Positions 6,072 through 63,947 of a stretch of DNA of 64,000 nt are shown piece after piece. The DNA comes from Phycisphaerae bacterium (lineage in GTDB: Bacteria; Planctomycetota; Phycisphaerae; JAJVII01): assembly GCA_022072085.1 (NCBI GenBank), contig JAJVII010000004.1, positions 1 through 64,000 on the forward strand, written 5' to 3'. A program made the translations under genes and the position numbers. The notes beneath the pieces are model-generated. The model was not told where the DNA came from. It did not search any database and worked only from the letters and a program-made list of their open reading frames with translations. Numbering within the stretch: the stretch's first letter is position 1; every line of letters starts with the position of its first letter.

Positions 6072-6778
6072 CGGATTCCCGGCCTGCGCGTCGGCGGAGG
6101 TCGGAGGCGGTTTTCGGAGTGCAAGGCATGTTCGTCAGCGATCGAATGACACGTGACGTGGTGACTATCGACGAGAGCGGGACCGTCCGCGAGGCGGCCG
6201 AGCTGATCGCCGAGCGCCGCATCCATCAGCTTCCCGTCGTCCGCGAAAAGCAGTGTCTGGTCGGCATCGTCACCGATCGCGACCTGCGCAGCGTTCACGA
6301 CCCCGAGATGATGGCCGGTCCGGTGTCGGCCATCATGTCGCGCGACCCGATCACCGTCTGGCCCGGTTCGCCGCTGGAGGACGCCCTGCTGCTGCTCTAT
6401 CGCCACCGCTTCGGCGCCCTGCCCGTGACTGTGGCGGCGGCCCCGGACTGCTGCCTGGGCAAGGGCATGCACCGGCTGGTGGGCATCATCTCGCGGACCG
6501 ACATCCTGGCGGCGCTGATCGAGATGCTGGGCATCGAGGAGGCCGGCACGCGCATCGAAGTCGAATTGCCCGAACAGTCGGCCGTCGCCGTCGTCGGCGT
6601 CATCAACGCCGTCGCCCAGACGCAGACGCGCGTGGTCTCGCTGACGCTCTCGGGCCCGCGCGGCCGGCAGTCGCGGCGGCTCTACATCCGCCTGTCCACG
6701 ATCGACCCGCGGCGGGCCATCGACGCCCTGCGCGAGGCGGGCTACACGATCGCCCACCCCTCCTGCGACCTGATCTGA
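6068..6778 (+). CDS. Tandem CBS domain protein
   Basis: FVSDRMTRDVVTIDESGTVREAAELIAERRIHQLPVVREKQCLVGIVTDRDLR; ATGA overlap with HDAC gene. Confidence 0.88.
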   Translation: MTDSRPARRRRSEAVFGVQGMFVSDRMTRDVVTIDESGTVREAAELIAERRIHQLPVVREKQCLVGIVTDRDLRSVHDPEMMAGPVSAIMSRDPITVWPGSPLEDALLLLYRHRFGALPVTVAAAPDCCLGKGMHRLVGIISRTDILAALIEMLGIEEAGTRIEVELPEQSAVAVVGVINAVAQTQTRVVSLTLSGPRGRQSRRLYIRLSTIDPRRAIDALREAGYTIAHPSCDLI

Positions 6779-6806
6779 GCCTGAACTCGGAGTTGAAGCT
6801 GAAGGT

Positions 6807-7466
6807 TCATTCGGCCGGTTCTTGGTCGGTCGGCACCAGCTCCAGGCAGTGGAACTGGCCACGGCCTTTGTTGCGGGCGACCTCCAGCGCCTCGGCGGCC
6901 GATCGGATCAACGGCTCGCACGATTCGCCGATGTCTTCCGGGCGGCCGCTGGTGACGCCGATGGTTACCGTCATGGGAATGACCCGCTCGTTGACCATGA
7001 TGCGGTTGGATTCGACGGCTTTGAGGATGCGCTGGCTGAGCTGCTGGGGCCGGTTGGGCTGGCTGTTGTCCATGGCGATCGCGAATTCCTCCTCGCCGAA
7101 CCGCGCCAGCAGGTCGTAGTCGCGCACGATGGATCGCAGAATGTCGGCCAGGCCCGAAAGCACCAGGTCGCCGGCCATGTGCCCGTAACGCTCGTTGATC
7201 GAACGGAAGTCGTCGATGTCGACGATCGCCAGGCATACCATCTGCTTGAACCGCAACGCCCGACGCCACAGCCGCCCGAACGACGCGAAGAAGTAATCGC
7301 GGTTGGCCAATCCCGTCAACTGGTCGGTGATCTGCTGAAGCTCGATCTGCTCGCGCAGCCCGGTGACCTCGGCCTGGGCGTGGGTCAACTCGCGCAAGAG
7401 TTCCTCGCGGCTGAGTTCATCGAGCTTCCGGGAAGAGCGGGTATCCAACGTCATGGCAATTCCCAC
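6807..7466 (-). CDS. GGDEF domain protein with variant GEEEF active-site motif
   Basis: DQLTGLANRDYFFASFGRLWRRALRF, VDIDDFRSINERYGHMAGDLVL, RDYDLLARFGEEEFAI. Confidence 0.88.
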   Translation of the reverse strand: MGIAMTLDTRSSRKLDELSREELLRELTHAQAEVTGLREQIELQQITDQLTGLANRDYFFASFGRLWRRALRFKQMVCLAIVDIDDFRSINERYGHMAGDLVLSGLADILRSIVRDYDLLARFGEEEFAIAMDNSQPNRPQQLSQRILKAVESNRIMVNERVIPMTVTIGVTSGRPEDIGESCEPLIRSAAEALEVARNKGRGQFHCLELVPTDQEPAE

Positions 7467-8643: not shown

Positions 8644-8769
8644 GGGATCAGGGGTCAGGGGTCGGGGGTCGGGGGTCGGGGGTCAGGGGGCGGGGAGCGG
8701 GGGGTCGGGGAGGAATATACTTCAACGTCCGTTCTTCCCTAACCCCTCGGTCCCTGATCCCCGACCCCC
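8644..8769. repeat. Heptad-armed imperfect hairpin (GGGGTCN)n / (CCCNGAN)n
   Basis: Consecutive 7-mers GGGATCA GGGGTCA GGGGTCG GGGGTCG GGGGTCG GGGGTCA GGGGGCG...; opposite arm ccctgatccccgaccccc. Confidence 0.9.
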
Positions 8770-8810
8770 TTCTTCTCCGTGCTCTCCGCGCTTCCGTGGT
8801 GAACTTTGTT

Positions 8811-20727: not shown

Positions 20728-20735
20728 TCGCTCTT

Positions 20736-20770
20736 CACTTGTCACTCAGCACTCAGGACTCAGCACTTTC
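20736..20770. repeat. Heptad array, single arm (CACTCAG)n
   Basis: CACTTGT CACTCAG CACTCAG GACTCAG CACTTTC. Confidence 0.85.
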
Positions 20771-33262: not shown

Positions 33263-33270
33263 GACAAACA

Positions 33271-33365
33271 GTGCTGAATGTTCAGTGCTGAGTGCTGAGT
33301 GCTGAGCAGGAGGCGAGTCGCCCGTTCCTTCACCCAGCACTCAATACTGGGCACTCGTCACTTCC
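33271..33365. repeat. Heptad-armed hairpin between tRNAs (GTGCTGA)n / (CACTCAN)n
   Basis: GTGCTGA ATGTTCA GTGCTGA GTGCTGA GTGCTGA - spacer - CACCCAG CACTCAA TACTGGG CACTCGT CACTTCC. Confidence 0.9.
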
Positions 33366-34833: not shown

Positions 34834-34849
34834 GGGAGACTCCGCGGAG

Positions 34850-34948
34850 TTTCAAGTGGCAAGATTCAAGTGGCAAGTGAACAGGAGGAGGGAACGTCCG
34901 ACCTCGTCATTCACTCGAAACTTGGAACTGGAAACTCGAAACTTGTCA
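34850..34948. repeat. Heptad-armed hairpin (CTTGNNA family)
   Basis: TTTCAAG TGGCAAG ATTCAAG TGGCAAG TGAACAG - spacer - CTCGAAA CTTGGAA CTGGAAA CTCGAAA CTTGTCA. Confidence 0.9.
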
Positions 34949-39730: not shown

Positions 39731-39790
39731 GGGGCGGGGACTTTCGCTTTTCACCGGCTGCGGCTGTGGCTATGCTGTAAACATGAATTG

Positions 39791-39853
39791 AGGCGATGGA
39801 GTTCGCCTTCAACCGGCACGCGGGCCGCGAGGCCCGGCCTGATGACTCCTACC
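39791..39853 (+). ncRNA. Fluoride riboswitch (crcB motif)
   Basis: AGGCGATGGAGTTCGCCTTCAACCGGC...GGCCTGATGACTCCTACC matches the conserved aptamer core directly upstream of crcB. Confidence 0.93.
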
Positions 39854-39926
39854 TTCGCGAAAGCGGGCGGGAGTCTTCGTCTTTTCAGGCGGCCCCGGCT
39901 GCCGCCCCCGAATTCGGAGCCCGATC

Positions 39927-62444: not shown

Positions 62445-63758
62445 TCAGTCCCGCTCGTGAGCGATCAGGTCGTCGTAGCTCTCGCGGCGGCGGATGATCC
62501 GGTAGCCCTCGCCGTCGACGAGCACCTCGGGGGGGCGCGGCCGGGCGTTGTACTGGCTGGCCATCGCGAACCCGTAGGCCCCCGCGCTGAAAATCGCCAG
62601 CCGGTCGCCCCGCGCCACCGGCGGCAGCGGACGGTCCTTGGCGAAGAAGTCGCCGCTCTCGCAGATTGGGCCTACCACGTCCACAGCCGAGAGGCCGGGC
62701 AGGTTCGCCGCCTCGGTCCGCACCGCCGGCGGGACGAAGCTCGCCTTCACGCGCGTCGGCCAGATGAAGTGGAACGCCCCGTAGAGCATCGGCCGAATCA
62801 GGTCGTTCATCGCGGCGTCGACAATGACGAACCGCCGGTCCCCGCCGCTCTTGACGTACTGCACCTGCGTCAGCATCACGCCGGCGTTGCCTGCGATGAA
62901 CCGCCCCGGCTCCAGCGTGATCCGCAGCCCGCGGCCCCGGAGCATCGGGACCAGGGCCTCGGCGAACGCCGACGCGGGCAGGGCCTCTTCGGCCTGGTAG
63001 TTGATGCCGAACCCGCCGCCGAGGTCCAGCGAGTCGATTGCGAACCCCTCGCCGCGCAGACCGTCGATCAGCGCCAGCGTCTTGGCCGTCGCGTCCACGT
63101 AAGGCTGAACGGTCGTGATCTGCGAGCCGATGTGCAGGTGGATGCCGCGCAGGTGCAGGCCAGGCCGATCGGGCGCAGCCGCCCGGTTGCCGAGCCGCCG
63201 GGCGTGGGCCCGGAAGATGGCCATCGCCCGCTCGATGTCCACGCCGAACTTCGTCTCCTTCTTGCCGGTCGTGATGTAGGTGTGCGTCCTGGGGTCCACG
63301 TCCGGGTTGACGCGCAGCGCCCCGCGAGCCGGTCGGCCCATGCGGCCGGCTATGCGGTCTATGTTCTCCAGTTCCGGCTCGCTCTCGACGTTGAACAGGC
63401 CGACGCCGGCCTCGATGGCCTCGGCGATTTCGCGGTCGCTCTTGCCCACGCCGGCAAAGACGATCCGGGCCGGGTCGCCGCCGGCGGCCAGGGCCCGGTG
63501 GATCTCTCCGCCGCTGACCACGTCGAAGCCCGCGCCGGCTTCAGCCAGCACGCGGCAGATGTGCAGATTGCCGTTGGTCTTGACCGCGTAGCAGACCGTC
63601 GCGTCCAGCGGGGCGAAGGCCTCGACGATCTGACCGAAGTGGTGCAGCAGCGTCGCCTTCGAGTAGACGTAGACCGGCGTGCCGACCTCTTGCACGATCC
63701 GGTCAGCCGACACTCCCTCGCAGTAGAGCTGCCCATCGCGATATTCAAAGTGATCCAT
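62445..63758 (-). CDS. lysA: Diaminopimelate decarboxylase
   Basis: TPVYVYSKATLLHHF; CYAVKTNGNLHICRVLAEAGAGFDVVSGGEIHRAL; GGGFGINY; PICESGDFFAKDR. Confidence 0.96.
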   Translation of the reverse strand: MDHFEYRDGQLYCEGVSADRIVQEVGTPVYVYSKATLLHHFGQIVEAFAPLDATVCYAVKTNGNLHICRVLAEAGAGFDVVSGGEIHRALAAGGDPARIVFAGVGKSDREIAEAIEAGVGLFNVESEPELENIDRIAGRMGRPARGALRVNPDVDPRTHTYITTGKKETKFGVDIERAMAIFRAHARRLGNRAAAPDRPGLHLRGIHLHIGSQITTVQPYVDATAKTLALIDGLRGEGFAIDSLDLGGGFGINYQAEEALPASAFAEALVPMLRGRGLRITLEPGRFIAGNAGVMLTQVQYVKSGGDRRFVIVDAAMNDLIRPMLYGAFHFIWPTRVKASFVPPAVRTEAANLPGLSAVDVVGPICESGDFFAKDRPLPPVARGDRLAIFSAGAYGFAMASQYNARPRPPEVLVDGEGYRIIRRRESYDDLIAHERD

Positions 63759-63797
63759 GTCTCGCAACCTCAGGAGAACGAGGAGAGGCAGAGGGGA

Positions 63798-63900
63798 ATT
63801 TCAGATTGAGGATTTTCGATTGTAGATTGAAGAGGGCAGGCGACAGGTCTCGTGGCACTTCCCTTCTTGAATCTACAATCTGAAATCTGCAATCTGAAAT
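63798..63900. repeat. Heptad-armed hairpin (CTNNAAT family), five units per arm
   Basis: ATTTCAG ATTGAGG ATTTTCG ATTGTAG ATTGAAG - spacer - CTTGAAT CTACAAT CTGAAAT CTGCAAT CTGAAAT. Confidence 0.92.
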
Positions 63901-63947
63901 TGCCTTTCTCTGTCCGGCCTCTGTCTCTCTGCACCTCTGCGTTAGAC

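Follow-up and report, generated by a model that had tools for sequence, protein, structure and literature searches.

The stretch of DNA analysed here (64,000 nt, hereafter the window) carries at 63798-63900 a long hairpin whose arms each consist of five 7-nt units, which raises the question of what kind of element it represents and how it came to lie there. The initial annotation described the arms as imperfect complements in register with a spacer of about 33 nt, and both the sequence (Table 1) and the inverted repeat 63794-63845/63853-63904, with 79% complementarity, agree with this description. As RNA, positions 63794-63904 were predicted to fold with -58.5 kcal/mol (z = -10.4), and none of 200 dinucleotide shuffles was equally stable; folding, which had been suggested as a check, thus set the hairpin well apart from shuffled DNA. 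The inverted pair that had been proposed outside the hairpin was found as well, at 63777-63793/63927-63943. This outer pair is probably an older period-8 element in which the period-7 hairpin is nested. The adjoining lysA gene served both as bait for relatives and as control locus; its best matches came from MAGs of Phycisphaerae and Planctomycetota, in line with a Phycisphaerae (Planctomycetota) metagenome-assembled genome as host.

Table 1. Components of the hairpin at 63798-63900, its neighbourhood and its companions in the window.
Feature	Position	Strand	Description
Outer left arm	63777..63793	+	GAGGAGAGGCAGAGG
Left arm	63798..63832	+	ATTTCAG ATTGAGG ATTTTCG ATTGTAG ATTGAAG (five 7-mers)
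Spacer (loop), 33 nt	63833..63865	+	5' side purine-rich, 3' side pyrimidine-rich; lengthens the stem in the fold
Right arm	63866..63900	+	CTTGAAT CTACAAT CTGAAAT CTGCAAT CTGAAAT (five 7-mers)
Outer right arm	63917..63943	+	8-nt period: CCTCTGTC TCTCTGCA CCTCTGCG
lysA (diaminopimelate decarboxylase-like)	62445..63767	-	Adjoins the 63798-63900 hairpin; identity read from the sequence
Hairpin, GGGGTCG/A arms	8644..8770	+	z = -5.0; followed by CTCCGTG-type 8-nt repeats, about 8772-8803
Single arm, GAGTGCT class	20735..20767	-	Fills the gap between a stop codon and a start codon
Hairpin, GAGTGCT arms	33270..33362	+	Between tRNA-Glu and tRNA-Lys genes; z = -4.0
Hairpin, AAGTTTC/AAGTGGC arms	34848..34943	+	z = -4.4

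A similar geometry had been noted at 8644, 33271 and 34850 and, as one arm only, at 20736; three hairpins and one single arm were confirmed at these places. The window copies are intergenic and do not lie in a 23S rRNA helix. The units differ between loci, as had been stated, but they are only partly homogeneous within a locus: in the arms at 63798-63900 some four positions stay the same (GATT, for example), and the other three change along the arm (GAG, TTC, GTA, GAA). Comparing identity within and between hairpins is a weak test, since the hairpins were picked by complementarity. Loops of period-7 hairpins are rich in purines on the 5' side and in pyrimidines on the 3' side, while the proposed loop motif GRGG..CGT..TTC proved loose and was clearly conserved within one unit family only. 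A single unit grammar, RRKK-NNN, was too narrow, as AATTTCC, GTAATTC and others fall outside it. A fixed strand polarity of all arms, with a G/T-rich left arm, held in the first loci and failed in the related genome G042; polarity seems to be fixed only within a unit class.

Other repeats were observed as well. Period-8/9 repeats of the CTCCGTG / GCAGAGAAC type occur at 8772-8803 of the window and at two further loci (L168, 3733-3975; L221, near 6663-6917); they also form inverted pairs, vary between congeners and appear to be a sister class to those of period 7. Palindromic families of the forms GGGGACTGGTCCG..TTTCGCG and CCCTCTCCCTCGCGAGGGAGAGGG..GGGTGAGGG adjoin heptamer hairpins at five loci (L013, L024, L017, L066 and L048).

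The excess of period-7 tracts over shuffled DNA that the initial annotation had proposed to look for was present. Five tracts were counted in the window against none in five shuffles, 39 in a 426-kb sample of this genome against one in block-shuffled sequence, and 21 in 513 kb of other Phycisphaerae (one run of N left out) against none after shuffling. The GTGCTGA unit class alone gave 106 matches in the 5.49-Mb genome and 0 for the reversed pattern. Of 400 genomes from the class, 243 contain the pattern (GAKTNNN)3GAKT; the reversed-pattern control is not a clean null here because some units (TTAG-type) match it. Both this genome and many relatives thus support the notion of a single class of elements whose period-7 arms are paired and locus-specific.

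What the initial annotation missed was a link between the heptamer hairpins and genes for four-helix-bundle proteins of the '23S rRNA intervening sequence protein' family (IVP; PF05635/TIGR02436). In a unit that only G042 of the two congeners G042 and G147 possesses, a gene lies between the arms, and the same site in G147 holds a mini-hairpin of the same unit. The G042 product and a similar protein encoded between GTGCTGA arms in the window's genome both matched PF05635 and TIGR02436; one of these two first-found proteins also showed weak similarity to bAvd/DGR Avd, below the cut-offs of those models. There is no IVP gene in the 64-kb window itself. The window's genome has eight IVP genes, seven of them away from contig ends, and six of these seven are enclosed by inverted period-7 arms with the units AGTGGCT, AGAGGCT, GGGGTCG, GAGTGCT, GAATGTC and GATTTCA (one each). 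With the exception of AGTGGCT, these unit classes recur in short hairpins of the same genome (5/6). In other Phycisphaerae, inverted arms with a period of 7-9, which defined a positive result, were found at 19/24 IVP genes of a first set and at 19/27 of a second, where a further (20th) gene had inverted arms just below the periodicity threshold. The total for Phycisphaerae is 44/58 (25/31 in the first set including the window's genome, plus 19/27), the loci being the best-scoring ones and not a random draw; about a quarter of the IVP genes lacked arms in this test. Arms of period 7-9 were found at none of 48 lysA control loci and in none of 31 windows shifted 600 bp outwards. These results demonstrated that IVP genes are linked to inverted arms of period 7-9.

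The association was also visible at the level of whole genomes. The 93 genomes of the class without an IVP match had on average 0.28 heptamer matches (maximum 5), and at least five matches were present in 151 of the 307 genomes with IVP. Over the 400 genomes, IVP and heptamer matches were strongly associated (Fisher p 4e-20, Spearman 0.61), kinship being allowed for only by tests within three families (f4, f14 and f21), in each of which the association was positive too. Other candidate enzymes were searched for in heptamer-rich genomes. No RVT_1 match was found in G373, G202 and G269, that is in 3 of the 13 heptamer-rich relatives tested, which argues against a reverse transcriptase as obligatory partner, and G373 had no Y1 transposase match; neither enzyme thus seems to be obligatory in the same genome.

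The mobility of the short hairpins was examined by comparing the congeners G147 and G042, whose orthologous DNA is mostly 80-90% identical. In orthologous intergenic regions, one congener has hairpins of about 70-140 nt that the other lacks (L200/L234 and L175/L218), as is the case at another pair of loci with 86% identity (L066 vs L079), and in one species only a second hairpin is nested in the loop of the first (L237 vs L184). Moreover, four dispersed hairpins of G147 have the loop CCAACAAGTCAGCGAGTGCATGG in common, differing in it by one or a few changes at most, so that an independent local origin of these four is hard to argue. The claim that the stem repeats change in concert received limited support. 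At one orthologous site (L169/L211) both arms have a different unit in each species (GTAATTC vs GTAGTCG), and both arms of a Nostoc plasmid element vary in repeat number; the fully alignable orthologous hairpin L201/L232 shows one compensatory change but two uncompensated ones. The few insertions that could be resolved in the congeners and the Nostoc plasmids showed no clear duplication of the target site.

Plasmid records contain IVP genes outside Planctomycetota, in cyanobacteria, Gemmatirosa (Gemmatimonadota) and Azospirillum, and 8 of 16 such genes are flanked by strong inverted arms with a 7- or 8-nt period, one of them inside a 23S rRNA gene. On a plasmid of Azospirillum lipoferum (L291), IVP and period-7 arms (AGAGGAC GGATGAC AGAGGAC GGAGGAC) lie within 23S-rRNA-like sequence; judged by these flanks, this is a classical 23S rRNA intervening sequence (IVS). 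IVP genes were also located between cas6 and cas4 (Anabaena), nrdB and nrdA (Nostoc edaphicum) and cas10 and cmr3 (Picosynechococcus). In one Nostoc operon, the IVP unit is present on some plasmids and missing from others with more than 90% identical flanks. Empty sites read ...TTCTAG-(G/A)TT-ATG..., with a stop-start gap of 3 nt, and filled sites read ...TTCTA(A/G)-ATCAGGAGTCAGG...IVP...TTCTGATT-ATG...; a target duplication of more than 2-3 nt was not seen in this comparison. As the empty site has no hairpin, the arms and the gene arrived together. Two plasmids (L281 vs L300) differ in the number of heptamers, in both arms of one element, and a plasmid with the empty site (L294) carries another IVP gene one junction downstream. 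On the Nostoc N6 plasmid pNPM1 (L299, 780-1344), a truncated IVP element has duplicated arms inside, which gives the impression that an element inserted into another one or recombined with it. A separate observation is that three loci on cyanobacterial plasmids (L278, L286 and L288) have IVP genes inside CRISPR-Cas operons (cas6/cas4, cas10/cmr3).

Paired heptamer arms had been considered undescribed. This did not stand, as the geometry is partly published already: in the Nostoc trnL(UAA) intron, the P6b hairpin consists of base-paired degenerate heptanucleotide repeats of two classes differing in unit (PMC3488679); in Xanthomonas, intergenic GGGAATC arrays of period 7 form 70-75 inverted pairs per genome (PMC4692102); and the IVS of Coxiella 23S rRNA has heptameric repeats in variable number in the stem region upstream of the S23p gene, its stem being cut by RNase III in vitro and IVSs having been suggested to be mobile (PMC4990558). 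The Nostoc repeats lie within a group I intron, whereas the present hairpins are intergenic and from Planctomycetota. The two Nostoc P6b classes are reportedly TDNGATT and NNTGAGT, which match the GATT- and GAGT-type units found here. The Xanthomonas repeats are of one unit type per genome and were read as G-quadruplex repeats, and no link to IVP was made there; Xanthomonas does have an IVP-family protein with a solved structure (2GSC, XCC0516). A long stem made by inverted arms is common to the window copies and the 23S rRNA IVSs (Coxiella burnetii, Leptospira), in the full elements of which the IVP gene lies in the loop. The window copies differ from these by being intergenic and without a gene, by their very high copy number and by their differing units. 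In IVSs the IVP (S23p) gene lies between the arms and is absent from short ones; the window copies carry no such gene, and six elements with arms elsewhere in the genome do.

Tandem 7-nt units that lie between genes in multiple copies, as in STRR-type heptameric repeats, are found here as well, and cyanobacterial STRRs, the TAACTGA repeats of Beggiatoaceae and the heptad sites of Geobacter metallireducens are intergenic heptamer direct repeats like the present ones; Geobacter class 3 sites even consist of five heptamers and are drawn as inverted pairs. Unlike the present hairpins, these were described as single unit families, were read as regulatory sites and were not tied to IVP. As regards MITEs, empty sites were found, no clear target duplication was seen, and the hairpins share unit classes with IVP elements, IVP being no known transposase. 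In our (incomplete) literature collection, no work linking intergenic heptamer hairpins with IVP genes was found.

The occurrence of the same arm type in hairpins and around IVP genes suggests that one widespread mobile element made both, and the hairpin at 63798-63900 is best explained, with good though not high probability, as a non-autonomous member of an IVS-type mobile element family. A full element would be a gene for the small four-helix-bundle protein between inverted arms of direct repeats with units of 7 nt or at times 8 nt; short members, the four window hairpins among them, would have kept the arms and a short spacer and lost the gene, or never had it. Elements would settle in intergenic gaps, between genes of operons, in 23S rRNA loops and in loops of other elements. 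In transcripts the arms would form a long hairpin that RNase III could cut, as others showed for rRNA IVSs, making the insertion tolerable. The repeats would drift and become homogeneous again through 7-nt slippage and arm-to-arm copying, leaving units that are locus-specific and still paired. IVP is related to Avd, an accessory protein of retroelements, and has no known catalytic domain; it may bind the hairpin and drive its movement, helping it to spread both in cis and in trans. What we infer includes the chemistry of transposition, the processing of these copies by RNase III and the turnover of units by slippage and arm-to-arm copying.

Some of the same features could be accounted for by local simple-sequence-repeat dynamics, in which slippage of the polymerase by 7 nt lengthens existing hairpins (terminators, for example), template switching between the arms keeps them paired, nothing moves, and IVP genes do no more than tolerate or favour these sites. 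An excess of period 7 is known from many bacteria, and slippage across a length contacted by the polymerase has been proposed (PMC4679880; PMC4692102), and repeat number indeed varies between orthologous Nostoc plasmid copies and between Coxiella strains. This explanation is nevertheless unlikely, because hairpins and IVP units are either there in full or missing, as discrete blocks, sites with and without the unit, flanks intact, have already been seen in the case of Nostoc IVP, loop-identical copies are scattered in one genome (G147), and arrays are almost missing from genomes without IVP. It is quite unlikely, too, that the role of IVP genes is that of passengers or of specialised inserters, with hairpins spreading otherwise and IVP elements targeting, or being captured by, existing period-7 hairpins. 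That short hairpins far outnumber IVP genes and that nested insertions in hairpin loops exist would fit such a scenario; the Nostoc empty site without a hairpin, which indicates that the arms came with the gene, and the arms of each IVP gene, which match each other and differ from gene to gene, speak against it.

A role as functional regulatory or terminator RNAs under selection at gene ends would agree with the intergenic location, the strong folds and the replacement of one hairpin by a different one at the same orthologous spot. It is very unlikely, since units and loops are unconserved between loci, sites are empty in relatives, the Rfam search matched no family to the window hairpins, and the U-run that follows the stem of an intrinsic terminator is missing (no T-run 3' of the right arms at 63900, 34943, 33362 and 8770). 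Movement by Y1 (RAYT-type) transposases is highly improbable and was rejected after the Y1 test. REPINs share the hairpin geometry (PMC3116915), being small non-autonomous extragenic elements as well, and Y1 genes occur in most genomes of the class. REPINs, however, have a fixed REP sequence and a Y1 transposase: no fixed REP sequence is common to the present loci, and heptamer-rich G373 has no Y1 match. The flanks of Y1 genes were inverted at 11/22 and were aperiodic, REP-like palindromes, with period 7-9 arms at 0/22, which largely contradicts this origin; flank type therefore cleanly separates the IVP and Y1 systems.

Heptameric intergenic repeats and 23S rRNA IVSs have been known for decades with no agreed origin, and IVP-family proteins are common with no function assigned. 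The link between heptamers and IVP merges two open questions into one that can be tested, namely whether IVP moves heptamer-armed hairpins. If it does, the abundance of locus-specific hairpins in many bacterial genomes would have an explanation, and a very common protein family with kinship to a retroelement accessory protein would gain a function. We propose tentatively, as a possibility rather than an expectation, that IVS/IVP elements are a general and very widespread mobile class that relies on no known transposase and on no reverse transcriptase of its own, in which a four-helix-bundle protein recognises self-complementary 7- or 8-nt arms that it or its copying keeps generating, and that most bacterial heptamer families (STRRs, trnL P6b, Xanthomonas, Geobacter) are footprints of them.

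Two further observations were made in the course of the analysis. Strong aperiodic palindromic flanks at the Phycisphaerae Y1_Tnp loci L306-L308, L319 and L325 appear to represent undescribed REP families. Finally, positions 39783-39858 (+) of the window match the fluoride riboswitch (crcB motif) with a score that exceeds the Rfam gathering cut-off.
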